From NCBI GenBank assembly GCA_016866215.1, contig VGNE01000026.1, positions 1-48,681 on the forward strand: a stretch of DNA of 48,681 nucleotides, written 5' to 3'. Of this stretch, positions 8,290 to 45,735 are shown one piece after another. How positions within the stretch are numbered: the stretch's first letter is position 1; the number at the start of each line of letters is the position of its first letter. The notes under the pieces are model-generated. The model saw only the letters and a list, made by a program, of their open reading frames with translations. It ran no database searches and was not told the DNA's origin. The stretch comes from Chloroflexota bacterium. Lineage in GTDB: Bacteria; Chloroflexota; Anaerolineae; Anaerolineales; Villigracilaceae. Both the position numbers and the translations under genes were made by a program.

Positions 8290-9279
8290 GTGTCTGAACC
8301 CCCTCTCGTCACGGTCATTATCGTTTTCTGGAACAGTGAAAAACACTTCCCTGAATGTCTGGAACGACTGGCAACCCAGACATTCAGGGATTTTGAAATT
8401 GTCGTCGTTAATAATGGGTCGGATATTCATTGGTTCGATCAATATAACATAGATGGGTTGCGCGTCCATCATCTCGAAGCCAACCTTGGCTTTGCGGTTG
8501 CCAACAACATAGGCGCGCGCCTTGTCCGCGGAAAATGGATCGCCCTGCTCAACGCGGATGCCTACCCCGAGCCGGACTGGCTGGAAAATCTCCTGAAGGC
8601 GGCGCGGGAAAATCCGCAATTCAACTTCTTCTCCTCCCGCCAACTTCAGGCGGACACTCCCGAATTATTGGACGGCGCAGGCGACGCTTATCACATCAGC
8701 GGGCTGGCGTGGCGGAATGGTTATTGCCTGCCAGCCGATTCGTGCGCGCTGGAGCAAAGGGAAGTTTTCAGTCCCTGTGCCGCCGCCGCCTTATATTCAC
8801 GGGATGATTTCATAAAGATTGGCGGTTTCGATGAAGATTACTTTTCCTATTTTGAAGATGTGGATCTGGGATTCCGCCTGGGGTTGCAGGGAAAGAAATG
8901 TCTTTATGTCCCGGAGGCAGTCGTCCACCACGTTGGGAGCGCCAGCACCGGCAAACGCAGCGACTTCTCCGTCTATTATGGCTATCGCAATTTGATCTGG
9001 ACCTTCGTCAAGGATATGCCGTCTCCGCTCCTTTGGCTGTTTCTGCCCCTTCATATCGCAGCGATGTCCTTCTTCATGGCATACCTCACCCTGCGCGGAC
9101 AGGGACGCGCGATCTGGAAGGCGGTCTTCGACGCGCTGCGCGGGCTTCCCAAAGTCATCGAAAAACGAAGGGCAATTCAAAAGGACAGAAGGATAAGATC
9201 AAGCGATTTGCTCAAGGTCATGTCCACCGGCATCCTTGAGCCGTACCGCGAATTCATGGAACGGAACAAAAACAGATGA
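8290..9279 (+). CDS. Family 2 glycosyltransferase (first copy of a duplicated pair)
   Basis: 329 residues starting with GTG. The GT-A fold is evident: VTVIIVFWNSE, then NADAYPEPDW (DxD-like metal site), FDEDYFSYFEDVDLGFRL (the ED acceptor region), and a C-terminal hydrophobic stretch LLWLFLPLHIAAMSFFMAY that probably attaches the enzyme to the membrane. It resembles rhamnosyltransferase-like enzymes of O-antigen and S-layer glycan loci. It is clearly paralogous to 15590-16594, with some long blocks nearly identical. The next gene overlaps by 4 nt. Confidence 0.87.
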   Translation: MSEPPLVTVIIVFWNSEKHFPECLERLATQTFRDFEIVVVNNGSDIHWFDQYNIDGLRVHHLEANLGFAVANNIGARLVRGKWIALLNADAYPEPDWLENLLKAARENPQFNFFSSRQLQADTPELLDGAGDAYHISGLAWRNGYCLPADSCALEQREVFSPCAAAALYSRDDFIKIGGFDEDYFSYFEDVDLGFRLGLQGKKCLYVPEAVVHHVGSASTGKRSDFSVYYGYRNLIWTFVKDMPSPLLWLFLPLHIAAMSFFMAYLTLRGQGRAIWKAVFDALRGLPKVIEKRRAIQKDRRIRSSDLLKVMSTGILEPYREFMERNKNR

Positions 9280-9866
9280 AGGACATCGGCGTTTGCATCC
9301 TCACCCGCAGTTCAAGGGATGTGATTCTCGACTGCCTCGCCTCGCTCTTCGAGCAGACCAAAGAGCTTGAAATGGATGTCGTTGTCGTGGATAACGACTC
9401 GCGCGACGACACCGTGGACCTGATCCGCCGCAACTTCCCGCAGGTGAAGTTGATTCTCAATTCTGAAAATGCCGGCTACTCCCGCGGCGTCAACCAGGGC
9501 TTGCGGACTCTCGATGCCCGTTATTACGTTTTGTTGAATCCCGATGCGGTCATCCTCGATCGCGCGCTGGAGCGGCTGGCGCGCTTCATGGATGAAAACC
9601 CGCAGGCAGGCATTTGTGGGTCCAGGGTCCTCAACCGCGACGGCAGCCTGCAATATCAATGCCGCCGCGGTGAAGCCCGCCCGGGCGAGGTCTTCTCGTA
9701 TTTTCTGGGTCTGGATCGTATGTTCCCCAACGACCCGCGCAGGAAAAGATCGCACTCTGGCGTTTGCTGGACAAAGACCTTGACCGCCCAGCCATCGCGC
9801 GTCAATTCACATTATCTATCAATGCAATTCGCGGGGCTTATGCTCACATCAGCGAAGACGAAGTAA
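9276..9866 (+). pseudogene. Truncated family 2 glycosyltransferase
   Basis: The first about 154 residues match the intact gene at 16591-17487 at roughly 90% (for example LTRSSRDVILDCL, NSENAGYSRGVNQG and FLGLDR are shared). At nt 9738, directly after FPNDPR, the match stops abruptly. The remaining about 40 codons are out-of-frame reading of an unrelated toxin-antitoxin remnant. The acceptor-binding half and membrane tail are missing, so no activity is expected. The junction is clean at the nucleotide level, which points to recombination or insertion with deletion, not gradual decay. Confidence 0.85.
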
Positions 9867-9931
9867 TGAAAGACGCGGTCAAAGCCACGCGGCAAGCGCG
9901 AAAAGCCCGCCATGCGAAAAGTCGTTCTTGA
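9739..9931 (+). pseudogene. 3' remnant of an antitoxin-like gene
   Basis: In the frame starting at 9740 an open stretch reads QEKIALWRLLDKDLDRPA and on to AKSRS, followed by a stop at 9929-9931. It overlaps the PIN-domain start at 9912, the arrangement typical of antitoxin-toxin pairs. Its own 5' end is lost at the junction with the truncated glycosyltransferase at 9738. The basic C-terminal tail (KATRQARKARHAKSR) suits an antitoxin, but the family is not recognised. Confidence 0.5.
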
Positions 9932-10220
9932 TACCAATATATTCATCAGCGGGGTGATTACGTCGGGATATTCCGCGTCCATTTTGGACGCCGCCCGCCG
10001 TGAAGAGATCAAACTGGTTACATCTGCCCATCTGCCCGAAGAATTCAGCGACGTGATTTCACGCCGTCACATTACGAAAAAATATCCCAAAGCCGCCCAG
10101 GAAGCCGAAGCCCTGAACGAAGTGAACGGGCGGCTCTCGCACAGCCTCCCCGCATGGGGAACGACATCGTTTAATCGTTTTGTACGGCAGAGAACTGTAA
10201 ATTATGATTGTGCAAGGTAG
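9912..10220 (+). pseudogene. Truncated PIN-domain toxin (VapC-like)
   Basis: It starts with MRKVVLDTNIFISGVITS, the first acidic motif of a putative-toxin PIN domain (COG1569-like), then SAHLPEEFSDVISRRHI. PIN toxins of this group run to about 135-150 residues with later Asp residues in ADxxDxxF and GD contexts. Here recognisable sequence ends near residue 75 (about nt 10138) and the rest is unrelated. At least two of the metal-binding acidic residues are therefore absent and an active RNase is unlikely. It overlaps the antitoxin remnant by 20 nt. Confidence 0.7.
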
Positions 10221-10248
10221 AGCACATTAGTTTTTTTGCAAACCATAC

Positions 10249-10277
10249 TTGACAAAAAGTATTACTTTATGTATAGT
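10249..10277 (+). promoter_or_regulatory. Sigma70-type promoter giving a leaderless start
   Basis: TTGACA (10249-10254), a 17-nt spacer and TATAGT (10272-10277) form a near-consensus promoter. Six bases (ACAACC) separate the -10 box from the ATG at 10284, so the transcription start should fall on or next to the A of the start codon. No Shine-Dalgarno sequence is available. This strongly suggests a leaderless mRNA for the downstream ATPase. Confidence 0.75.
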
Positions 10278-10283
10278 ACAACC

Positions 10284-11456
10284 ATGATAATACAAAGAGA
10301 CATTTACACTGAGATTGCGCCTGTTCTATCTTCGCCCGAAGCCATTGTCATCACGGGCATGAGGCGTGTTGGGAAAACAACGCTGCTCAAATTTATCTAT
10401 GACCAGGTTGAATCACCCAATAAGATCTACCTGGATCTGGAAAACCCACGCAACCAAACCTATTTCCAGGAAGTTGATTACGATGCCGTAAAAAATAATC
10501 TCCAATTGTCAGGCCTGCAAAAAGAAGGGCGGGCAACCGTATTTTTGGATGAAATCCAATGGGTAAAGCAGCTGCCCTCCATCGTAAAGTATTTAATGGA
10601 CACATATCAGATCAAGTTCATTTTGAGCGGTTCTTCCAGCTTTTATTTAAAAAATCAATTCTCCGAATCGCTTGCGGGAAGAAAATATATTTTCGAACTC
10701 CACCCATTGACGTTCCGCGAGTTCTTACGCATGAAACAAGCGCCTATCCCTTCCAATAGAGGAGCGTTCGATCAAACCTCCCTGGCTTTTTATCAAACCT
10801 ACAAGGCATACGTGGACGAATACTTGCAGTTTGGCGGATTCCCCGGGGTCGCGCAAAAAACGACAGAAAGCGAAAAGAAGTCCGCCCTGGATGACATCTT
10901 TATTTCGTATTATCAACTGGAAGTCCTGCAACTCAGTGATTTTCGCAAAATCCACAAAATCAGGGATTTGCTTTTTCTCTTGATGGGACGCGTAGGCTCG
11001 CGCCTGGATGTAAAAAAACTTACCAGTACTCTTGGCATCTCGCGCGAGACCGTCAACGAGTATCTTGCCTTCTTGGAAGGCACGTATTTCATCAAAATAG
11101 TGAGACCTTACACCACCAGCAAGGATGTTGAGATACGCAAAGCGGGCAAAATATACGTGTGCGATACGGGACTTGTCCGCCAATTTGCCCAGGTGGATGA
11201 AGGCGTGCTGTTCGAAAATGCCGTGTATTGGAATTTACACCAAAAAGGAGCGGTTCAATATTATCAACGAAAAAACGGCGTTGAAATTGATTTTGTCCTT
11301 AACCAGCGACAAGCGTATGAAGTAAAACTTCATCCCGTCAAGGAAGATATGAATAAATTACAGGCTTTGGGAAAAGATATCGGAATAGAGAAAACAAATA
11401 TCGTGGGGCGAGACTATGCCCCGATGCAGGAAGTTCTGTATCTCTATAATCTATGA
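10284..11456 (+). CDS. AAA+ ATPase with C-terminal DUF4143 nuclease-like domain
   Basis: 390 residues. Walker A is GMRRVGKTTLL (about residues 24-34), Walker B is VFLDEIQ (about 90-96), and the sensor strand is FILSGSSS. The C-terminal DUF4143 part contains EIDFVLNQRQAYEVKL, the core of a PD-(D/E)xK-like fold. Start 10284 is chosen because the promoter places the transcript end there; an upstream in-frame ATG at 10269 lies inside the promoter. These proteins are common accessory ATPases in bacteria and archaea with no settled function. The gene has its own promoter and is isolated between relics, which fits horizontal acquisition. Confidence 0.87.
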   Translation: MIIQRDIYTEIAPVLSSPEAIVITGMRRVGKTTLLKFIYDQVESPNKIYLDLENPRNQTYFQEVDYDAVKNNLQLSGLQKEGRATVFLDEIQWVKQLPSIVKYLMDTYQIKFILSGSSSFYLKNQFSESLAGRKYIFELHPLTFREFLRMKQAPIPSNRGAFDQTSLAFYQTYKAYVDEYLQFGGFPGVAQKTTESEKKSALDDIFISYYQLEVLQLSDFRKIHKIRDLLFLLMGRVGSRLDVKKLTSTLGISRETVNEYLAFLEGTYFIKIVRPYTTSKDVEIRKAGKIYVCDTGLVRQFAQVDEGVLFENAVYWNLHQKGAVQYYQRKNGVEIDFVLNQRQAYEVKLHPVKEDMNKLQALGKDIGIEKTNIVGRDYAPMQEVLYLYNL

Positions 11457-11463
11457 ACCCAGA

Positions 11464-11499
11464 CCTGCCCGTTGATCTTCAAGGCAGGCTTGTTATTTT
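11464..11499 (+). terminator. Possible weak terminator after the DUF4143 ATPase
   Basis: CCTGCC (11464-11469) and GGCAGG (11483-11488) can pair across a 13-nt loop, and a T-rich stretch follows. The stem is only 6 bp, so this is a weak call. Confidence 0.3.
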
Positions 11500-11548
11500 A
11501 AGTTATAGTGTTTTCTCTGTCATCTTCCATTCTGTTCCTCCGGGTGGT

Positions 11549-11620
11549 CCCTGAGCCGTGTCGAAGGGCAGGCCGCTTACCGTTACCGCGATGCCTGTCC
11601 TGAGCTGGCATCCTGTCATT
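11549..11620 (-). pseudogene. Short 3' relic of the repeat-associated gene family
   Basis: On the minus strand, in-frame codons read GIAVTVSGLPFDTAQG. This matches the C-terminal IAVTASG of the relic near 13400 and the RIAVMATD of the pseudogene ending at 14568, and it runs straight into a copy of the CCCTGAGC-type repeat (11549-11568). Only about 20 codons remain. It is one of three fragments of the same family within 4 kb. Confidence 0.45.
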
Positions 11621-11700
11621 GCTTTGCATGAGTTAAAAGTTCCGCCAGATTGTGGAGATCTGCTTGCTTATACAACAGGATTGGGGGTTCGGAGCCTCAT

Positions 11701-36617: not shown

Positions 36618-36633
36618 GCCGACTTAAGTCGGC
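36618..36633. repeat. 16-bp perfect palindrome
   Basis: GCCGACTTAAGTCGGC in the gap between the PAP2-like gene and the DUF2892 gene. It could serve as a weak transcript-end hairpin, but there is no strong T-tract. Confidence 0.4.
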
Positions 36634-36673: not shown

Positions 36674-37285
36674 TCAAAACGCGAGCGCCAGAACAATCAA
36701 CGTAACAGACGCGCCCACGATACCGCCAGCCCACACCTGCGCCCAATTGTGCCGCTTGCGGTAGACCCGCGCCCAGCCGATGAGGGGAAGCGCCAGAAAA
36801 GCCAGCGCCCAAACGAGACCAAACATCCAGGTCAGGAAAGCCGCGAAGCCTGCCACGCCGCCTGCATGCAGGCTGATCTTCCAGAAGGAGGAGATGGTCA
36901 TCATCGTGACGCCCAACGCCACGTAGATCAGCAACAATGTTGAAAGTGATGCGGGGGCATTCAGCGCCCGCAGGAGAAAGAATCCCAGCAGGTTGCCGAC
37001 CAGGTTGACGGCGATGAAGGGGGCGCGCTCCTCGCGGCGCGGCAGGTCGAATCCACTGACCCAGCCAAATTTGCGTCCCAAGGCGATGTAAGTCAAGGGA
37101 ACACCGTCTGCGAAGAGGAGGGCAAGCGCACTCCAGCCCAGTGCGGGCAGGAGCACGCCAGTCTCGGACAGCGCCGCGCCGAGGAATATCGGCACAGCCA
37201 GCACGGAACTATCCAGCAGGATGGAAAGCCAGCGCGACAACCTGTCTTTCCATCCTGTCAGAGATTGAGATTGTGCTTCATTCAT
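36674..37285 (-). CDS. PAP2-like membrane protein
   Basis: About 203 residues from ATG 37285, which overlaps the end of the permease gene. Five to six membrane helices are present. The C-terminal half carries a PAP2-like pattern: SLHAGG and WARVYRKRHNWAQVWAGG. The usual KxxxxxxRP motif is not evident, and the final motif has Gln-Val where active phosphatases have an Asp, so phosphatase activity is doubtful. It is related to phosphatidic acid phosphatase-like proteins. Confidence 0.6.
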   Translation of the reverse strand: MNEAQSQSLTGWKDRLSRWLSILLDSSVLAVPIFLGAALSETGVLLPALGWSALALLFADGVPLTYIALGRKFGWVSGFDLPRREERAPFIAVNLVGNLLGFFLLRALNAPASLSTLLLIYVALGVTMMTISSFWKISLHAGGVAGFAAFLTWMFGLVWALAFLALPLIGWARVYRKRHNWAQVWAGGIVGASVTLIVLALAF

Positions 37286-38537
37286 AGCGCAATGCTTCAA
37301 TCGGTCTCAGACTCGCGGCGTGGTTGGCGGGGTAAATGCCGAAGAACAAGCCCACAACCACCGAGAAACTCACCGCCAATATGATCGATTGCGAGGTGAC
37401 GATGGCGCTGGTCACCCCTGAGGCGTTTACCAGCATGGCAATGCCCACGCCCAGCCCAATGCCGATGGCGCCGCCTGCAAGGCTCAAGATGATCGCCTCC
37501 AGCAGGAACTGGGTCAGGATATCCACTTTACGCGCGCCCATGGCTTTTCGCAGACCGATCTCGCGCGTGCGTTCCGTCACCGAGACCAGCATGATGTTCA
37601 TGATGCCGATCCCGCCGACCAGCAGGCTGATGGCGGCAATCGCGCCCAAAAAGACGACCAGAATATTGGTGACCTGCGTGAGGGTTGCCAGCAAATCAGC
37701 CTGGCTGACAACGCTGAAGTCGCCTTCTTCGTCCGCGTTGAAACCGTGCCGCCGCAGAAGCAGCGCATTGATCTGGTCGGTAATCTCATCCACGCGCTCT
37801 TCATCTGCAACCACAACATTAACCGATGTAACAATAGACTCTCCCTGTGCGTTACGACCATCGAAGATTTTGGTCTGCGCGGTGGTGATGGGGACGAGGA
37901 TGGCATTGTCCGGATCGCTGAAGCGTGAACCACCTTGGGGTGACAGTATCCCCACCACGGTCAGCGAGATGCGTCCGCCCTCGGCGCCGGGAATCGAGAT
38001 TTTAATTTTTTGTCCGATCGGATCGAATCCACCAAACAAGTCACGCGCCGCGTCGCTTCCCAACACGGCCACGGTCCCCCGTCCGCTCACATCGCTTTCG
38101 CTGATGAAACGGCCGCGAGCAATTTCCAATCCAAAGGCTGAAAGATATTCGGTGTTGACGCCGGTGACTTTGGTGTTGATGTTGGCGGAACCGAAAATCA
38201 CCTGCGTTTGCATGGTGAACTCCGGGGCAACGATGGCGGCATCCGGCACGTTGCGCGGGTCGGCGATGGCTTGCGCGTCCGCGTACGTCAGGCTGGCGGC
38301 GCTTCCGCTGGGGCTTTGCACCCCGCCGAATTGATACGCGCCCGGCGCGACGAAGAGCAGGTTGGAACCGGCCCCGGAAATCGAACCGGTAATGCTGGCC
38401 TGTACGCCCTGTCCGATGGAAAGCAAGGCAATGACGGCCGCCACGCCGATGATGACTCCCAGCATGGTCAGCCCGGCGCGCAACTTGTTGGCGTTCAAGC
38501 CATTCCACGCCGTAATTAGACTTTCAAGCCAGTCCAT
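37278..38537 (-). CDS. MacB/FtsX-type ABC transporter permease
   Basis: 419 residues. One helix near the N-terminus (LRAGLTMLGVIIGVAAVIALLSIG) is followed by a large external MacB domain (about 45-270) and three C-terminal helices with GGIGIMNIMLVSVTERTREIGLRKAMGAR, the classic FtsX/MacB signature. It starts one base before the end of the ATPase gene (TAATG overlap). Together with that ATPase and the adaptor it builds a MacAB-like export or signalling complex. The substrate is unknown. Confidence 0.92.
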   Translation of the reverse strand: MDWLESLITAWNGLNANKLRAGLTMLGVIIGVAAVIALLSIGQGVQASITGSISGAGSNLLFVAPGAYQFGGVQSPSGSAASLTYADAQAIADPRNVPDAAIVAPEFTMQTQVIFGSANINTKVTGVNTEYLSAFGLEIARGRFISESDVSGRGTVAVLGSDAARDLFGGFDPIGQKIKISIPGAEGGRISLTVVGILSPQGGSRFSDPDNAILVPITTAQTKIFDGRNAQGESIVTSVNVVVADEERVDEITDQINALLLRRHGFNADEEGDFSVVSQADLLATLTQVTNILVVFLGAIAAISLLVGGIGIMNIMLVSVTERTREIGLRKAMGARKVDILTQFLLEAIILSLAGGAIGIGLGVGIAMLVNASGVTSAIVTSQSIILAVSFSVVVGLFFGIYPANHAASLRPIEALRYE

Positions 38538-39259
38538 TATGCGACTCCTTGTTGTTGGCTGGGCGTTACAGAGGCGGTCTGTGATTCTGCAACAAGCCCA
38601 TCCTGCATGTAAATGGTGCGCTGTGCCTGCGATGCAACCCTGGGGTCGTGGGTGACCATTACCACAGTCAGCCCCTGTTCGCGGTGCAGGCGGTGGAAGA
38701 TTTCCATCACCTCCGCGCCGGATTTGGAATCCAGGTTGCCCGTCGGTTCGTCGGCCAGCAAAATGGACGGTTGTTGCGCCAGGGCGCGGGCAATCGCCGT
38801 GCGCTGTTGCTGTCCGCCGGAGAGTTCGGTGGGAAGATGACGCATGCGATCTCCCAGTCCAACCATCCCCAGCATTTCGCGGGCGCGTTTGGCGCGTTCC
38901 CCGCGCGGCAGGCGTTTCTCGCCGCGTTGGTATTGCAAAGGCAACATTACTTGTTGGAGCGCATCCACGCGCGACAACAGGTTAAAACTTTGAAAGACAA
39001 ATCCGATCTCGCGGTTGCGGACGGAGGCGAGTTGACTATCGTCCATGCCGCTCACTTCGACGCCGTTCAGCCAGTACGCGCCAGAGGTCGGGGAATCCAG
39101 ACAGCCGATAATGTGCATCAACGTGGATTTGCCCGAGCCGGACGGGCCGGTAATCGCCACCCATTCGCCCCTGGCAATCTCAAGTGAGACGCCGTCCAGC
39201 GCGCGAACTTCCGCATCGCCCATCCCGTACACTTTAGTCATGTTTTGAATGGAGATCAT
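38537..39259 (-). CDS. MacB/LolD-type ABC transporter ATPase
   Basis: 240 residues from ATG 39259 (GGAGGG 6 nt upstream). Walker A is GPSGSGKST (about 38-46), Q-loop is FVFQSFNL, signature is LSGGQQQRTAIARAL, Walker B is SILLADEPTGNLD and the H-loop is VMVTHD. It belongs to the LolD/MacB/FtsE-type group. The start lies next to the adaptor stop (TGAGATG), so the three exporter genes are translationally linked. Confidence 0.94.
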   Translation of the reverse strand: MISIQNMTKVYGMGDAEVRALDGVSLEIARGEWVAITGPSGSGKSTLMHIIGCLDSPTSGAYWLNGVEVSGMDDSQLASVRNREIGFVFQSFNLLSRVDALQQVMLPLQYQRGEKRLPRGERAKRAREMLGMVGLGDRMRHLPTELSGGQQQRTAIARALAQQPSILLADEPTGNLDSKSGAEVMEIFHRLHREQGLTVVMVTHDPRVASQAQRTIYMQDGLVAESQTASVTPSQQQGVA

Positions 39260-39260
39260 C

Positions 39261-40313
39261 TCATTGCCCTCCGCCAAACATCGGACTGCTCATCACCTCG
39301 GAATCCTGGACAGGGTTGGCATAGACCGTCACAACATCCCCTTCGTTGAGGCCGCTTAGGATTTCTACCTGGGTATCGGTGATCAATCCCAACGTGACCG
39401 CCACGCGCTCCGCTTCGCGCCCGGAAGCGGTCACCCGCGTCACGTACGCCTGACCGCCTTCGGTCTCGACGGCGCGGAATGGGACAAACAGGGTATTCTC
39501 CCGTTTTTCAATCGTAACAATTATGTTGACGGTCATTCCGGGGCGGATCGAAAGGTCGGTGGGATCCAGGCGGACCGTCACAGGATAGAGCACTACGCCG
39601 GATTGCACATCTGCCGAAGATGAAATTTTAATTATTTCGCCGCTCAATTCCGCGCCGGGGAAGGCGTCCGCTGTGACGGAAACCGGGGTGCGCATCGCGA
39701 TACGCGCCACATCGGTCTCGTCCACGTTGACCTCGACATCCAGACTCGAGAGATCGCTCAGGGTCAAGACTGTCTGGCTGTTCCCTGCCATTTCACCGGG
39801 CTCAACCAACAATGCCGTGACAACGCCGCTGAAAGGAGCGACCAGTGTGACCTGCTCCAGCCGCCATTCCGCTTGTTGCAGGGAAATTTGCGCCTGTTCC
39901 AGTTTGGCTTTGGCCTTTTTCACCGGCTCATCCTCTTCCCAGTAATCATCCCGCGCGTCGGAAAGATCATACTCCGCGATGGATACTGAGAGGCGCGCCT
40001 GTTCCACCTGCCACTCCAGATCTTTTGTGTCGAGGCGCAGGAGAGTCTGCCCTGCCTCCACCCGCCCTCCCTCGGTTACGAGCGTCTCTGTCACCCGGCC
40101 GCCGGAGGAAAACGCCAATCCGATCTCAACGCGCGGCACAATACTACCGGAGACATCCACTGTCACAGACAGGTCTCCGCGTTGAACGACCGCGGTCTCG
40201 GTCGCGGGCGCTTCTGCCGCCGCTCTTTTGGCGGAAATTTGCCGGTAAGCCATAAAGCCAAGCGCGGCGATGATGATCACCACAGAAAGGGTCAAAACTG
40301 ATTTCTTGTTCAT
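39261..40313 (-). CDS. MacA/HlyD-type membrane fusion protein
   Basis: 350 residues. One N-terminal helix (SVLTLSVVIIIAALGFMAY) is followed by a lipoyl/biotinyl-like domain (VTETLVTEGGRVEAGQTLLRLD and FSGVVTALLVEPGEMAG), separated by a helical hairpin of about 45 residues (LSVSIAEYDLSDA to QQAEWRLEQ), and a C-terminal beta domain (LNEGDVVTVYANP). The short coiled coil is typical of organisms without an outer-membrane TolC partner, though that is only suggestive. It is first in the exporter block. Confidence 0.9.
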   Translation of the reverse strand: MNKKSVLTLSVVIIIAALGFMAYRQISAKRAAAEAPATETAVVQRGDLSVTVDVSGSIVPRVEIGLAFSSGGRVTETLVTEGGRVEAGQTLLRLDTKDLEWQVEQARLSVSIAEYDLSDARDDYWEEDEPVKKAKAKLEQAQISLQQAEWRLEQVTLVAPFSGVVTALLVEPGEMAGNSQTVLTLSDLSSLDVEVNVDETDVARIAMRTPVSVTADAFPGAELSGEIIKISSSADVQSGVVLYPVTVRLDPTDLSIRPGMTVNIIVTIEKRENTLFVPFRAVETEGGQAYVTRVTASGREAERVAVTLGLITDTQVEILSGLNEGDVVTVYANPVQDSEVMSSPMFGGGQ

Positions 40314-40367: not shown

Positions 40368-40955
40368 TCACTTCTTCAGATACGTTTCAGGGGATTTGGC
40401 GAACGCGCGCTGGCAGGACGGCGCGCAGAAGTAATAGGCGCGGGCTTCGTGAACATGTTGCAGGGACGTTTTGGGATCCACCTTCATGTCGCAGACCGGG
40501 TCGGTTTCCATCTGCGCGGCCGCGCCCTGTTGCACGAGACGCACGAGGGCAAACATCGAAACGAGGTAGATGGCGCCGATCAAAACATTGGTGACGGTGA
40601 TCGCCCAGCCGTTGTAAAGATATTGCAACATCACGCCGAGCATGGCACCCATCATGCCGCCCATCGCGCCGCCCATGCCGCCGTCCATCATGCCCATCAG
40701 GCCGCCGACGCGCCCGAAGATAATTCCGAAAGCCAGGCCGACGATCACGCCGACCAGGTTGCTGACGAACATGTCGGTCGCCGCGCCGATGAAATAACCG
40801 ACAGCGATACCCGTCATCATGCCCTGCGTCATGCCGATCATCATGCCGAGCATTTCGGTCACGCTCGACTTGTAACGCGCGAGATATATCCCCACGCCCG
40901 CGCTAACCAGCATGACGACAATGCTCGCGATGAATGCAGTTGTAAGATTTAACAT
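40368..40955 (-). CDS. Glycine/methionine-rich membrane protein with C-terminal YHS domain
   Basis: 195 residues from ATG 40955 (AGGAG 6 nt upstream). The first 140 are membrane segments with many Gly and Met (GMMIGMTQGMMTG, GGLMGMMDGGMGGAMGGMMG). The C-terminus is a YHS domain: DPVCDMKVDPKTS and YYFCAPSCQRAFAKSPETYL, with the Cys residues that bind metals such as copper. Clustered Met and the YHS domain suggest a role in copper handling (inference). It directly follows a YtkA-like lipoprotein gene. Confidence 0.82.
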   Translation of the reverse strand: MLNLTTAFIASIVVMLVSAGVGIYLARYKSSVTEMLGMMIGMTQGMMTGIAVGYFIGAATDMFVSNLVGVIVGLAFGIIFGRVGGLMGMMDGGMGGAMGGMMGAMLGVMLQYLYNGWAITVTNVLIGAIYLVSMFALVRLVQQGAAAQMETDPVCDMKVDPKTSLQHVHEARAYYFCAPSCQRAFAKSPETYLKK

Positions 40956-40977
40956 TTTTTCTCCTGTTGCAAGCGAA

Positions 40978-41448
40978 TTACCACGCCACCATGAAATCAA
41001 ATCGGACGGTGGTTAACTGCCCCGCGCGCTCGATGCCGACGATCACGCGCCAGGGACCGGGCATGAGGAAATGGATTTCAGCGCTATAACGCCCTTCGCC
41101 CAATGATGAAGCGGCGGTTACATTTCTGCCGTGACTCATATTGGTCATGTCAATGTCGAAGGAAATCGTCGCGTCGGTGATCGGCTGGCCATTGGAATCA
41201 GTGACAAGCGCTTCGAGAGTGTTATCGCCGCGGGAGGGCGGGTTGGGATCGCTGAAGATCCACACCAGCAGGTCGCCGCTTTGTTTCCCGCCCAACGCAG
41301 GGACTTGATTCGCGGCAGGATCCTGCGCGGTTGAATCAGCGGAGGCGAAGGTTGGGATGGGCGTCGGCTGTTCCACCGACGGAGTCGACATCATGCCGCA
41401 CGAGGCGAGCAGTAATGCCATGAGCGTCAAAATCAGTTTGTTGGTCAT
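40978..41448 (-). CDS. YtkA/FixH-like lipoprotein
   Basis: 156 residues from ATG 41448 (AAGGAAA upstream). A lipobox LLASCG follows a hydrophobic signal (LILTLMALLLASC). A Ser/Thr/Pro linker leads to a beta-sandwich with LEALVTDSNGQPITDATISF, DMTNMSHGR, GRYSAEIHFLMPGPWRVIVGI, the pattern of YtkA-like domains. Met/His positions (MTNMSH, FLMPGPW) may bind copper. It starts 11 nt after the end of the haem-copper-like gene and precedes the YHS gene. Confidence 0.82.
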   Translation of the reverse strand: MTNKLILTLMALLLASCGMMSTPSVEQPTPIPTFASADSTAQDPAANQVPALGGKQSGDLLVWIFSDPNPPSRGDNTLEALVTDSNGQPITDATISFDIDMTNMSHGRNVTAASSLGEGRYSAEIHFLMPGPWRVIVGIERAGQLTTVRFDFMVAW

Positions 41449-41459
41449 CGTAATTTTCC

Positions 41460-42689
41460 TTAAGGCGTTCTTTCTTCCAAACTCACAGCCTGAGATTCCT
41501 CTACTTTTTGCATACCGGAACGCAGGCTTCCCCACAGCGAGATCAAAATCGGGAGCCCGGAGACGATCCAAAAACCATACGCCAGCGCGCGCGAAACCGG
41601 TTCCACATCCGGGAAGAACAGACTGACCCAGAATAGAATCCCTCCGAGATGCACGGTGACGAGGCTCAACCACGTCCCGCCCAAACGCGCGGGCTTATTT
41701 GGCTCGAAGAAGCGTGTGAACAGATATGGAACCAGGGCGTAGCCAAATTGCAGGATCCAGCCAAAGATCAGGATCGGCCCGCCACTACTGGAAACTTCCT
41801 GCACGGGGAAATCGGTTGCGCTGGCGACGATCAGCGGCGCGACCACCACAGGGATGAAGAACCAGACATAGGATGTGAGTAAATGTAACATGCCGAGCGT
41901 CCAGGCGCGGCGGTCACCAAGCAATGGTTTGATCACAATGACAAGCAAAAGTATGCTTCCGAGTGTGTGCAGGATCAAACCAACGACGGTAAATATACTG
42001 ACGTTCAGCCACGGCCCGGAGATCAACCCCAATGCGCCCAGCGCCATTGACCAATAGATCCACGGAATACTACGCGGCCAGGCCAACGGACGATTTGCGA
42101 ACGAGGGGTACAAGTCCACCAGTAGCCCAGCCAGGACGATTGCGGCGAAGCCCCACAGGTTGGTATGGACGTGGACTTCGATGGGGGAGGCGATGTGTAA
42201 GACTTCGCTCCATCCCAGCCAAAGCCCTGTGCCGACCAAACCACCGAGTATCAGATAGCCCAGCCCGGTGATGTAGAACTTGCGTCCTTCGATGCCAGCA
42301 TTTTTTGAAGAGGCTTGCGCGGGGCGCAGGTCAATCAGTTGCTTGATGAGCAGGACGGTGGCAATGCCCACCAGCGTACCACCTGTGACGATGAGCGCGC
42401 GCGTGATGGTGGGAATACCGATCAATAAAAGCACCAGTCCCACGTTCAGGCTCAACCAGATGTCCCAGCGCATTTTGGGGCGCGGCAAACCGCGCAGGGT
42501 TGTCACTAGGATGGGGGCAAGTCCAAACGTAATTTCAGATAAAGCGCCGAGAGTGACCAAATGCACTCTCAGCCATTTCAGGCTTCCGAACAATGGGATG
42601 ATCTCCAGCCCTGTCAAAATCGAAGCCAATGCGGCCAACGCGACTAGGGAAAGGTACAGGAGTGACATGAGGAAGTATGGATGAGGCAT
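41460..42689 (-). CDS. 12-TM haem-copper-oxidase-like membrane protein (paralogue A)
   Basis: 409 residues from ATG 42689 (AGGAGG 7 nt upstream). About twelve membrane helices are present. Conserved His residues lie in RVHLVTLG (H43), EVHVHTNLWGF (H173, H175), LILHTLG (H241) and MLHLLTSYVW (H269). The HxHxNxxG motif and topology resemble subunit I of cbb3/NOR-type haem-copper proteins and NnrS-like proteins, but the full set of six ligands is not assured. It shares MRWDIWLSLNVG and all these His positions with the gene at 42918. Probably haem-binding; function unproven. Confidence 0.7.
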   Translation of the reverse strand: MPHPYFLMSLLYLSLVALAALASILTGLEIIPLFGSLKWLRVHLVTLGALSEITFGLAPILVTTLRGLPRPKMRWDIWLSLNVGLVLLLIGIPTITRALIVTGGTLVGIATVLLIKQLIDLRPAQASSKNAGIEGRKFYITGLGYLILGGLVGTGLWLGWSEVLHIASPIEVHVHTNLWGFAAIVLAGLLVDLYPSFANRPLAWPRSIPWIYWSMALGALGLISGPWLNVSIFTVVGLILHTLGSILLLVIVIKPLLGDRRAWTLGMLHLLTSYVWFFIPVVVAPLIVASATDFPVQEVSSSGGPILIFGWILQFGYALVPYLFTRFFEPNKPARLGGTWLSLVTVHLGGILFWVSLFFPDVEPVSRALAYGFWIVSGLPILISLWGSLRSGMQKVEESQAVSLEERTP

Positions 42690-42690
42690 G

Positions 42691-42915
42691 TCAGCCTCCT
42701 TGTTTCTTCGCGGTTGCCTGGTGCAGAATATCGAGAAATTCTGCAAGTGGTACACGATGGATGCGCGCCGCCCATTCGACCGTCACTGCTTTTGCGGCAA
42801 GCATTCGCAAGGAATATCGTCCCACACGTTTGATGCCAAACACTTCCATTACATCGGCGATATCGCCATATTCTTCAAGGATGGCGGATACGCGTGTATC
42901 TTTTGTAATTTCCAT
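42691..42915 (-). CDS. DUF1858-like small protein without cysteines
   Basis: 74 residues: MEITKDTRVSAILEEYGDIADVM, then EVFGIKRVGRYSLRMLAAKAVTVEWAARIHRVPLAEFL. The first half matches DUF1858, a domain seen with ScdA-type and other redox proteins, which usually has a CxxC after the FG. Here that site reads FGIKRVGR and there is no Cys at all. It lies between the two haem-copper-like genes with gaps of 2 and 1 nt, so it is certainly in the same transcript. Confidence 0.78.
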   Translation of the reverse strand: MEITKDTRVSAILEEYGDIADVMEVFGIKRVGRYSLRMLAAKAVTVEWAARIHRVPLAEFLDILHQATAKKQGG

Positions 42916-42917
42916 GA

Positions 42918-44096
42918 TTACGACGCTTCGATCTTCTGCAAACCAGTCCGCGCGATTTCAGCGAGCTCTTTCAATGGATGGATCAAGGCGATGGCATACA
43001 ACGCGAATCCGATTCCATAGAGAACGCCTCTGGCTGGGACGATGAAGATGCTTGCCCACACAAACAGACTCCCCGCTGTTGCCCCCGCCAGACTCACCCA
43101 ATTGCCGCCAAGTTGCGAATTCTCTTCCTTGAGGAAGAATCGGCGGGCAATGTATGGGATGAGGGCAATGCCAAATTGCAGCACCCAACCATAGATCAAG
43201 GCTTGAGGCGCAATGGATTCGATCGATCCGCCTTCAAGGTATCCAAGCAAAATAAATGGTGCAACCAGGATCGGCGCGGTAATCCATGTGTAGGAGGAAA
43301 CTAAATGCCATGCGCCTGCGCTGTTTAATTTTCCACTGGCTTTGAAGGCTTGGATGGTCAACACGATCAGCCAGATTGTTGAACTCAGGTGCAGAATCAA
43401 ACCTGAAACGGTGGGAGGCAAACTGCCACCGAGCCATGGACCCAACACGAGACCGAACGCCCCGAGAGTCATGCCCCAAAAAATAATCGAAACATTTTTT
43501 GTTGAGCTGAGCGGACGACCCGTGATCATCGGAACAAAATCCACAAGCAAGCCTGCGAAGACAAGCGACATGAAGCCCCATGAGTTGGCATGGATGTGCG
43601 CTTCAAGCGGAATTTTGATGTACAGCGTGTCGCTCCAATTGAGGTATATGCCTGTGCCGATGATGATGCCCACGAGCAAATAGAACATGCCTGTGATGTA
43701 AAACTTGAGGCTTTCAGGCGCATCACCGCCGCGTACATTCCATAATTGAATTAATAGCAATGTCGCAGAAATGAAAATAAGTGTGCCGCCTGTAAAGATC
43801 ATCGGGTGATTCATTCCTGCAAACCCAGCCACGAGCGCAACGAAGCCAACATTGAGGGTCAGCCAAATATCCCAGCGCATGGCAGGACGTGACTTTTTGG
43901 AAAGCGACGCAACCAGCAAAGGCAGTAACCCGAAGATCACTTGAGAGAGAATCCCAAGCGTGATGAAATGTACGCGAACCCAACGCAACGCGGGAAACGC
44001 GCTAACGAGATTGATGCTAACCAATGAAGCATCTGTCGCGGCAAGTAATGCCACGAATGTGAAAAGTAAAGTTGTGAGTAAATATGGAATGGGCAT
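42918..44096 (-). CDS. 12-TM haem-copper-oxidase-like membrane protein (paralogue B)
   Basis: 392 residues from ATG 44096 (AAGGAG about 10 nt upstream). It is paralogous to 41460-42689 along its length, with the same His positions: RVHFITLG (H43), EAHIHANSWGF (H167, H169), LILHLSST (H236) and AWHLVSSYTW (H264). PAMRWDIWLTLNVG is also shared. Paralogue A's additional His in VTVHLGG is absent here. It lies 14 nt after the cytochrome b561 gene, suggesting electron exchange between the two (inference). Confidence 0.7.
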   Translation of the reverse strand: MPIPYLLTTLLFTFVALLAATDASLVSINLVSAFPALRWVRVHFITLGILSQVIFGLLPLLVASLSKKSRPAMRWDIWLTLNVGFVALVAGFAGMNHPMIFTGGTLIFISATLLLIQLWNVRGGDAPESLKFYITGMFYLLVGIIIGTGIYLNWSDTLYIKIPLEAHIHANSWGFMSLVFAGLLVDFVPMITGRPLSSTKNVSIIFWGMTLGAFGLVLGPWLGGSLPPTVSGLILHLSSTIWLIVLTIQAFKASGKLNSAGAWHLVSSYTWITAPILVAPFILLGYLEGGSIESIAPQALIYGWVLQFGIALIPYIARRFFLKEENSQLGGNWVSLAGATAGSLFVWASIFIVPARGVLYGIGFALYAIALIHPLKELAEIARTGLQKIEAS

Positions 44097-44110
44097 TTTA
44101 TTATTCTCCT

Positions 44111-44641
44111 TCATTTTCCATACCACATGCGCGCGAGAAGATTATCCTTGAGCGCGAGTTGATGATAGAACGCCGCACCGACATGCAACAACACAAGCAA
44201 AAATAGCGCAGGCGCGATGAAGCCGTGTAACATACGCGCGGCAAAGTCATAAAAATCTGTGGGCAGAATTCCTGAGCCGCCAAAGACGATTGAGGGAAGC
44301 CCTGCCTGTATCGAAAGCGACATGCCGCTGACCGCCATCAAAAAGACCAACAGGTACAGGGCGTAATGCACGAACTTGCCGAACCCGTCGATGAAGGCAT
44401 TTCCTGTTGAGGCGTAGGCGGGACGCGGGACTTTCATCCGTGTGGTGAAGCGGACGATGATCACGAGCAGCATGGTGACGCCCAACATCATGTGAATCCG
44501 AAGCGGCGCGATCTCGCTTGCGTCGTTCGGAAGGAGGCTGGAATATTTACCGAAGATGAACGCCGCGAAGACGAGAGCAACGGTCAGCCAGTGCAAAGTA
44601 ACTTGCAAGGGATGGTAACGCTTAGGCGAATTTTGAGTCAT
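44111..44641 (-). CDS. Cytochrome b561 family protein
   Basis: 176 residues with four membrane helices. Haem-ligand His candidates lie in RYHPLQVTLHWLTV (H10, H17), LRIHMMLG, FVHYALY and LHGFIAPALFLLVLLHVGAAFYHQ, matching the bacterial cytochrome b561 pattern. Such proteins carry two haems b and pass electrons from quinol or ascorbate-like donors. The gene starts 3 nt after the cupin stop with AAGGAG upstream. Confidence 0.9.
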   Translation of the reverse strand: MTQNSPKRYHPLQVTLHWLTVALVFAAFIFGKYSSLLPNDASEIAPLRIHMMLGVTMLLVIIVRFTTRMKVPRPAYASTGNAFIDGFGKFVHYALYLLVFLMAVSGMSLSIQAGLPSIVFGGSGILPTDFYDFAARMLHGFIAPALFLLVLLHVGAAFYHQLALKDNLLARMWYGK

Positions 44642-44644
44642 CGC

Positions 44645-44968
44645 TTATTTCTCTCCTTTCGAGCCAAGAAATACAACGCGTGTCTTCGCGTTCATACCGC
44701 GCTTCACGCCGCTCGGCACAACAATGGTCACGCCAGGTTTGATCTCGAAGGCTTCGTCGCCAACGGTCATCAAGCCAGCGCCTTGGAGAAAATGGTACAT
44801 CGCCGCCTCGCCGGGATGCGCGGGGATTTGTCCGCCTGCCTCCAGCCCGACGACCAGCGCCTTGAACTGCGACGTGTCAATTAAGAATTGCGGCTTGGGG
44901 CCCTCTGATGAAAAGACAGCCTTTGCTTTTGTATCTGTAAAATAGATTTGTGTAGTTGCGTCAGACAT
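44645..44968 (-). CDS. Cupin-domain protein
   Basis: 107 residues of one beta-barrel cupin: LEAGGQIPAHPGEAAMYHFLQGAG (metal His/Glu region) and EIKPGVTIVVPSGVKRGMNA. The first gene of the long minus-strand run that ends near 36315. AGGAG is 6 nt before the ATG. The start region lies in a perfect 10-bp inverted repeat, so translation may be controlled. The ligand is unknown. Confidence 0.87.
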   Translation of the reverse strand: MSDATTQIYFTDTKAKAVFSSEGPKPQFLIDTSQFKALVVGLEAGGQIPAHPGEAAMYHFLQGAGLMTVGDEAFEIKPGVTIVVPSGVKRGMNAKTRVVFLGSKGEK

Positions 44969-44993
44969 ATTGTCTCCTTTTGGATATGTCTGA
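44961..44993 (-). promoter_or_regulatory. Inverted repeat enclosing the cupin translation start
   Basis: TCAGACATAT and ATATGTCTGA are perfect 10-bp arms (44993-44984 and 44970-44961 on the minus strand). The ribosome site AGGAG is in the 13-nt loop and the ATG is inside the second arm. It may act as an RNA hairpin or as a dimer-binding operator. Confidence 0.55.
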
Positions 44994-45051
44994 CTTTATC
45001 TCTTTCCCCCGCTTCCCGCCCCGACTTTTGTCGGGTTTTTGATCCCAGTTA

Positions 45052-45735
45052 TTATTTGCCCTGAATCATTGCCCGCTCCGCCAAACCTGCACGATCCAAA
45101 ATGCGAATTTGATGTTTATCCATTTCGATCAACCCCGCCTTCGTCAACTCGCGGATGACGCGGCTCAACACATCTGGCACAGTGCCGAGGTGCGACGCCA
45201 TTTCCGTTTGAGTTGTCCAGCGGCGACGTTCGATCACATCTCCTTCGGCTTGTTCTAATAAAAATTTTGCAAACCGCGCCTCCACCGTCCGCAGGGATAA
45301 ATCTGCTGTCAACGCCACAAGGCTGATGAAACGGTCTGCCATGCTTTCCATGATCTGCAACACCGTACGTGGATGTGCCAATAAAACATCTTCCAATGCC
45401 TGACGCGGCAGTAACCAAATCCCTGATTCTTCCAAGACAATTGCAGTGGCAGGATTTGCGCGCTTGGCAAATACCCCGATCTCGTTGAATATTTCGCCTG
45501 CACCCAGAAAGCGCAAGACCTGCTCGCGTCCATCTGGGGAGGTCTTCAACACTTTTAATGAACCGTACTGGAGATAATACAAATTAGTTTCCGTATCCCC
45601 TTCCCAAAACACAACAGCATCAGGCGCGAACACTTTCCACACCGCGCTCTTTGCCAGTGTAGCCAGAGTCTCGTGGTCGAGTCCACGCAGGAATTCGAAG
45701 GTTTGTAAGCGTTTGAGGAGGATATCAGTTTGCAT
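45052..45735 (-). CDS. Crp/Fnr-family transcription regulator
   Basis: 227 residues. A cyclic-nucleotide-binding-type beta-roll (FLRGLDHETLATLAKSAVW, FWEGDTETNLYYLQYGSLKV) leads through a long helix to a winged HTH (TTQTEMASHLGTVPDVLSRVIRELTKAGLI). There are no N-terminal Cys residues for an FeS cluster, so it is not classical Fnr; it resembles Dnr/NnrR-type or haem/cAMP-type members. It lies 83 bp upstream of the cupin gene, facing the same way, and is the natural candidate regulator of the redox gene run. Confidence 0.92.
   Translation of the reverse strand: MQTDILLKRLQTFEFLRGLDHETLATLAKSAVWKVFAPDAVVFWEGDTETNLYYLQYGSLKVLKTSPDGREQVLRFLGAGEIFNEIGVFAKRANPATAIVLEESGIWLLPRQALEDVLLAHPRTVLQIMESMADRFISLVALTADLSLRTVEARFAKFLLEQAEGDVIERRRWTTQTEMASHLGTVPDVLSRVIRELTKAGLIEMDKHQIRILDRAGLAERAMIQGK

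Follow-up and report, generated by a model that had tools for sequence, protein, structure and literature searches.

We analysed positions 1 to 48,681 of contig VGNE01000026.1 from a Chloroflexota draft genome (assembly GCA_016866215.1, Anaerolineales; 3.74 Mb), a 48,681-nucleotide (nt) stretch referred to below as the window. It contains a gene cluster whose genes and operator all lie on the minus strand and which encodes a membrane protein, here called A (42918..44096), together with a second protein of the same family, B. We propose, giving the idea about an even chance, that this is a Crp/Fnr-controlled nitric oxide (NO)- or nitrite-stress operon in which an NnrS-like membrane haem protein is fed by a cytochrome b561. 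The proposal draws on the predicted fold of A, the conservation and helix placement of its histidines, its kinship with NnrS, a recurring gene order and a conserved operator. The A/B family is uncharacterized, and a search of the open-licence literature returned no description of it.

Predicted fold and histidine residues of protein A

An AlphaFold2 model of A, built with 49 family members as the alignment, has a predicted local distance difference test score (pLDDT) of 87.9, a predicted template modelling score (pTM) of 0.89 and, by our count, 12 transmembrane (TM) helices. The top eight Foldseek matches of this model are cbb3 oxidase subunit I and NO reductases. It superimposes on cbb3 oxidase subunit I with Z 32.2 (384 residues, 3.3 Å, 12% identity) and on NorB with Z 30.9 (374 residues, 3.5 Å). 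As modelled, nearly the full length of A adopts the subunit I fold of haem-copper oxidases. By sequence, window A falls into no accepted family in Pfam or NCBIfam, and a search of solved structures with the family gave no match. Five of the 49 aligned members match PF00115 (COX1) at E 1 or better, the best at 4.3e-5, and one of the family (L221) reaches 21.5 bits.

The histidines of window A are at positions 43, 97, 167, 169, 236, 264 and 373. H43 lies in TM2, H167 and H169 in TM6, H236 in TM8 and H264 at the start of TM9. H43, H167, H169 and H264 are each present in 49/49 aligned members and H236 in 45/49, being replaced by Phe in four loci (L146, L148, L150 and L152). An initial sequence-only reading of this DNA had picked out five histidines common to A and B, and the alignment bears this out. 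TM7, TM10 and TM11 of A have no His. TM7 (199-221) ends in P220-W221, found in all 49 members, and TM10 (289-321) carries A296-P297-Q298, found in 47-48 of the 49 and missing from B.

This arrangement departs from that of known active sites. A CuB or FeB site is built from a His on TM6 and a His-His pair on TM7, and TM7 of A has no His; if the repeats of the fold are read in permuted order (discussed below), TM10-TM11 of A would match this site, and there is no His there either. The TM10 HxH that serves two haems is likewise absent from A, and its counterpart in the permuted reading would be R41-x-H43 in TM2, with a single His. In CcoN (cbb3 subunit I), H257-H258 form the copper pair, and TM10 supplies H345 and H347 as haem ligands. 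Because TM7 and TM10 of A lack His, A cannot hold a canonical binuclear centre, and A as a canonical oxidase was rejected. The earlier description of A as haem-copper-like, and the structure prediction proposed as its check, hold for the subunit I fold but fail for the CuB site, since the helices concerned have no His.

A true terminal NO or O2 reductase with a re-sited active centre would agree with cbb3 and NorB as the best fold matches and with the conservation of E165, H167, H169, H236 and E293. We nevertheless regard it as quite unlikely: besides the His-free TM7 and TM10, window A scores 12 bits against PF00115 (cut-off 34.8), and neither a NorC or CuA subunit nor a fused cytochrome c domain is found among the operon genes, A itself having no room for a soluble domain.

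Kinship with NnrS

Sequence profiles identify NnrS, an NO-stress protein, as the nearest named family to A. An hhalign comparison of the A and NnrS profiles gave 95.3% (E 2.2e-8, 183 columns), and nine of the 49 aligned members match PF05940 (NnrS) at E 1 or better. When rescanned alone, one member (L219, genome G208) scores 35.8 bits (E 8e-9), above the PF05940 cut-off of 28, while five others score 16.9-22.4 bits, below it. The NnrS HxH aligns with H167-x-H169 of A, and the single His of the last NnrS repeat with H43; of the NnrS residues concerned, H74 and H356 do not vary across 14 sequences. Across the phylum, PF05940 matches 28 of 301 genomes at E 0.001, the host not being among them and 19 scoring above cut-off, and two of the matches are A-family genes, one below cut-off (G054) and the other above it (G208). 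A search for NnrS on plasmids gave no match.

A further connection is provided by DUF1858. Three NnrS-type proteins, chosen because they looked fused (L056, L062 and L066), have DUF1858 in their C-terminal part and begin with a DUF1858/ScdA_N-like domain at the N-terminus. These fusions make the DUF1858 gene adjoining A (42691..42915; PF08984, E 4e-10) a natural partner. Its product has no Cys, as initially noted.

A recurring gene order

We scanned named genomes for related loci and kept the best 80 of 121 relatives, many of which end at contig ends. By our reading, 79 of the 80 locus labels are Chloroflexota; the other is Burkholderiaceae and is probably misbinned. The usual order is Crp/Fnr, cupin, (b561), A, (DUF1858). 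Counting tblastn matches on the same strand within 4 kb, cupin genes are found in 68 of the 80 loci, Crp in 63, b561 in 30 and DUF1858 in 23. A or B is present in 55 of 150 family genomes, and a profile search finds matches in 22 of 301 phylum genomes at E 0.001, eight of these being weak partial hits, some to NnrS-type proteins. The sequence-only reading had reported no cytochrome c nearby, which is correct for the window genes but not for the family, as the sequence fetched for 21 of the 80 loci includes a cytochrome c gene.

In the window, A is preceded by a cytochrome b561-type membrane electron carrier (44111..44641; PF01292, E 1.2e-22) and a small cupin of 107 amino acids (44645..44968; PF07883, Cupin_2), the latter with a plausible start and ribosome-binding site. 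The regulator gene (45052..45735; Pfam cNMP_binding and HTH_Crp_2) encodes a Crp/Fnr-family protein without Cys and with the recognition helix VPDVLSR.

A conserved operator between regulator and cupin

The 83-nt gap between the Crp and cupin genes contains the operator CCGACAAAAGTCGG (45021..45034; exact match in the window), a 5-4-5 palindrome 5' of the cupin gene. Crp and cupin lie 20-400 nt apart in 47 of the 80 loci, which together with the window make 48 intergenic regions. The box has the form CCGAC-N4-GTCGG; its core occurs in 46 of these and the exact 14-mer in 32. In 40 of the 46, the operator centre lies 29 bp before a TAnnnT hexamer. Class II activator sites lie near -41.5, and the spacing to this -10-like hexamer has class II activator geometry. 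The predicted regulator pairs an FNR-like 5-4-5 box with the lack of FNR cysteines; DNR, NnrR and HcpR are also described as lacking these cysteines (PMC1274295).

The box tracks both the family and the regulator. Among 150 genomes, the exact box is found in 47 of the 55 with the A/B family versus 5 of the 95 without it, and 54 of 69 boxes have an A or B gene no more than 4 kb away. The core is present within 400 nt downstream of 49 of the 77 Crp-like genes in the 80 loci, and of 36 of the 39 whose products are at least 67% identical to the window's regulator. VPDVLSR is kept, with at most one change, in all 37 of those regulators in which the helix was read out.

The same palindrome could in principle be an intrinsic terminator: on the plus strand a 6-bp stem is followed by TTTTT, and a terminator scan calls it. 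The Crp strand, however, has no T run after the palindrome; the loop, AAAA, hardly varies, whereas base pairs of the outer stem are lost in loci labelled Caldilineaceae; the spacing to the -10-like hexamer is fixed; and one terminator call is what shuffled sequences yield (mean 1.1). On these grounds we judge the call a coincidence and a terminator highly improbable.

Several other occurrences of the operator were observed. The host draft genome has two exact copies, the second of which (contig C95, L177:1-2678) stands in a Crp-operator-cupin-b561 arrangement, after which comes a truncated gene labelled VIT1 from its similarity; the Crp gene there is split in two frames, and no A is found before the contig end. 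At 36619-36632 of the window, about 650 nt downstream of the last exporter gene described below, lies CCGACTTAAGTCGG, a perfect palindrome two mismatches away from the operator. In two loci (L032 and L033, at about 9100-11700), a GAF-HD gene separates Crp from cupin and has a copy of the Crp 3' end and of the operator on either side, the pattern that a duplicating insertion would leave.

A possible connection to nitrite and nitric oxide

Full-length cd1 nitrite reductase genes adjoin A in genomes G008, G112, G063 and G132, although G112 and G063 show equal spacing and score and may be one lineage. The cd1 genes lie between Crp and cupin in L038, L039/L113 and L094, and in L094 (G132) an operator box precedes both cd1 and cupin. 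Within the 80 named loci, cd1 is in the stretch of four and inside the operon in two. A co-occurrence analysis of 149 relatives, with partial cd1 hits dropped, found the A/B family in 21 of 32 relatives with full-length cd1 versus 33 of 117 without (Fisher p 1.6e-4, a value that ignores kinship). Of the checks suggested at the outset, the phylogenetic profiling favours a nitrite connection in some genomes. More generally, the initial idea of a redox or NO/copper module gains from the NnrS kinship, the link to nitrite/NO genes in some genomes and the regulated operon, and loses the canonical binuclear site.

Several observations weigh against the NO- or nitrite-stress operon proposed here. Window A has no Pfam match to PF05940 at E 10, and none of the 19 members of alignment A1 matches it at E 1. 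The cd1 association is uncorrected for kinship, and 33 of the 54 family-bearing relatives have no full-length cd1. The host genome has neither cd1 nor NirK above cut-off. It does encode two PF00115 proteins above cut-off, one of which, an oxidase-type subunit on its contig C13 (L174) with the motif GHPAQQ, resembles eNOR. This protein is likely to be an eNOR from its sequence, as a Gln would be the eNOR mark by our reading of Table A4 of PMC8756737. Since the host lacks cd1 and NirK and has this eNOR-like oxidase, NO disposal by A would be redundant or directed at NO from outside.

A different function for A would be that of a transmembrane electron carrier or redox sensor, which would use a bis-His haem to relay electrons among quinol, b561 and cytochrome c and perform no gas chemistry. 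The b561 and cytochrome c neighbours fit such a role, as do TM7, TM10 and TM11 without His, which may leave a His pair of the low-spin type. We consider it unlikely, as the NnrS kinship and the cd1 neighbours favour NO.

Repeat order and a possible circular permutation

Treating the fold as three repeats of four TM helices (r1-r3), we found that the TM5-8 repeat of A best matches NnrS repeat 1 and the TM1-4 repeat best matches NnrS repeat 3. Against a doubled NnrS profile, hhalign scored an alignment crossing the junction at 76.6 versus 54.8 for the same order. The permuted order was preferred in 39 of 40 subsamples, and in 30 of 40 with the His motifs masked, while a control comparison of cbb3 with aa3-type oxidases gave the same order (122.8 versus 24.8). 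Pfam NnrS matches of six members agree: five place TM5-12 on NnrS 8-246, the sixth (L013) places TM1-8 on NnrS 134-360, and none shows the same repeat order as NnrS. COX1 matches of L221 and window A place TM5-9 on the COX1 start, and HMMER repeat models concur with the permuted order for A r1 (11/14) and A r2 (9/14).

Other comparisons count against a permutation. In the reverse direction all three NnrS repeats prefer A r2, and A r3 has no repeat preference. A against CcoN prefers another offset (32.0 versus 18.2), the comparison of NnrS with oxidases gave no clear preference, the better-scoring COX1 match of window A (E 0.096) begins at COX1 144 with another offset, and a weak reverse match of L229 has, by our reckoning, the same order. 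Because the repeats resemble one another, the result is not conclusive on cause; a motif of a symmetric ancestor kept in different repeats could mimic a permutation. From these sequence comparisons we give a true circular permutation a little less than an even chance. It would make H43 the counterpart of the TM10 low-spin haem His of oxidases and H167 that of their TM2 His, which explains one bis-His haem, and it still leaves the anchors of CuB and the high-spin haem missing.

Some loci contain a further protein of interest in this context. A 140-amino-acid, four-helix-sized protein with an invariant AHVHGN (L035:7391-7819, with homologues in L083, L084, L094, L096, L114, L138 and L148) is encoded beside A-operon genes in 7 of the 80 loci and has no Pfam match. 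Its profile matches the TM5-8 repeat of A at 61.5% (E 7.8e-5) and the TM1-4 repeat weakly at 18%, with seven other repeats below 1%, and the protein may represent one repeat of the haem-copper fold on its own. A fuller scenario, which we hold at somewhat under evens, makes A and B a circularly permuted haem-copper lineage, with TM5-12 equivalent to NnrS/oxidase TM1-8, TM1-4 being the last repeat moved to the front, one haem between TM2 and TM6, and the AHVHGN protein a single-repeat relic. The A profile also found a 729-amino-acid protein (L222:955-3141, G421) that has three stretches matching COX1 (E 6e-28) and in which SHAHMN/SHAQMN-type motifs recur; it looks like a multi-repeat haem-copper-type protein.

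The paralogue B and its module

B (41460..42689) is an ancient paralogue of A, as judged from 42% identity, the tree and the alignment, with five His in common. It lacks the E293-Q298 motif of A and forms its own clade away from A (support 1.0, five members). A single-sequence model of B, made with no alignment, reached a pLDDT of 51.8 and was not used.

B is followed in the window by a YtkA-like lipoprotein (40978..41448; PF13115, E 3.8e-13), a Met-rich membrane protein with a C-terminal YHS domain (40368..40955; PF04945, E 9.1e-8) and, on the same strand and extending to 37278, genes that we read as a HlyD-type periplasmic adaptor (39261..40313, after a 54-nt gap), a MacB-type ABC ATPase (38537..39259) and a MacB-type permease (37278..38537); the adaptor gene comes after YHS in L049 and L050 as well. 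Elsewhere, B, YtkA and YHS make up a separate module (L047-L050): YtkA-YHS-HlyD-MacB recurs in L049, where B comes last, and in L050; L047 and L048 carry some of these genes. One genome (G031, L049) has both modules about 10 kb apart, and the window joins the A operon and the B module. The B-type module of L046, L051 and L049 includes a separate Crp gene, together with a ferredoxin-like gene and one for an M50-CBS protease, 5' of DUF1858; PMC8756737 lists an S2P-M50 gene near a NirS in SURF metagenome-assembled genome 71.

The eight genes from Crp to YHS are as first described, all on one strand and each with a plausible start, and Pfam confirms the domains of the Crp/Fnr, cupin, b561, DUF1858, YtkA and YHS genes. 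The likely starts are their upper coordinates (45735, 44968, 44641, 44096, 42915, 42689, 41448 and 40955), and the small gaps initially claimed do measure 1-22 nt from the 3' side of the cupin gene through the YHS gene. By starts and gaps the set fits one operon, which probably continues into the HlyD-MacB exporter.

The first reading had also joined A and B, with b561, in one complex. An obligate A-B heterodimer has little support: by our count 44 of 51 A-type genomes have no second copy of 40-50% identity, B is a clade of its own, and elsewhere it sits in a separate module. Adjacent A/B-family pairs (L153:9998-12505 and G085:C201) speak for a possible pairing. The two proteins are long-diverged paralogues, each from its own module.

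Copper supply by YtkA and YHS, also proposed at the outset, is plausible, and the whole operon might deal with copper or haem, in supply, export or assembly, instead of NO. In the window, L049 and L050, B is found together with YtkA, YHS, the Met-rich protein and HlyD-MacB, and in L047 and L048 with some of them. These genes travel with B, however, and not with A, YtkA and YHS being found in only one of the 80 named loci, and we think such a role for the operon very unlikely.

A proposed mechanism

In the NO- or nitrite-stress operon proposed here, NO or a related signal is probably what the regulator senses, and the regulator would bind CCGACAAAAGTCGG as a class II activator of a cupin-b561-A-DUF1858 transcript. 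One b haem with bis-His ligation is most likely bound between H43 (TM2) and H167 (TM6). With permuted repeats, this site would be the oxidase low-spin haem site, formed by the TM10 and TM2 His but with the two helices in a different order along the chain. A second haem or a metal may sit at H169 and perhaps H236. Quinol electrons would pass through b561, and through cytochrome c where present, to A; we infer that A binds NO, which it would probably reduce or remove in some other way. DUF1858 would act as a partner, as in the fused NnrS proteins, and B, a member of the same family as A, would form with YtkA, YHS and HlyD-MacB a second module that is linked here to the operon.

Comparison with known systems

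A family with the oxidase/NO-reductase fold and changed metal anchors, perhaps also a changed repeat order, bears on the origin of respiratory enzymes. That the family has a dedicated regulator and operator, in a phylum often found in sludge and groundwater, bears on NO handling in denitrifying communities, and the operator offers a direct handle for expression tests.

The relationship to other haem-copper proteins is one of shared fold and different metal anchors. A resembles CcoN in the whole 12-TM fold and in the likeness of its TM6 HIH to the CcoN TM10 HVH, and differs in lacking His in TM7 and TM10 and in having no CcoO or CcoP seen in the operon. It likewise shares the fold of NorB (Z 30.9), but has neither the FeB His set nor a NorC in the operon. 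NnrS is described in PMC1274295 as a haem-copper membrane protein under NO-responsive regulators. A shares with it the HxH and the lone His in matching repeats and the DUF1858 partner, and one family member lies above the NnrS cut-off, whereas window A lies below it and the repeat order differs in the Pfam and profile alignments.

Two known gene arrangements are also comparable. According to PMC6710368, a Bradyrhizobium DUF1858 gene (bsl7085) lies beside nnrR and in the NnrR regulon, with nnrS divergent to nnrR. The boxes there are TTG-N8-CAA rather than CCGAC-N4-GTCGG and the main text of the paper mentions no cupin, but both systems bring together a Crp/Fnr regulator, an NnrS or NnrS-related protein and a DUF1858 gene. 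The C1-C2-NirS/eNOR systems of Anaerolineales (PMC8756737) differ in that A is neither NirS nor eNOR, and the main text of that paper mentions neither NnrS nor a cupin; they nonetheless come from the same bacterial group, in which some cd1 genes lie inside the A operon.

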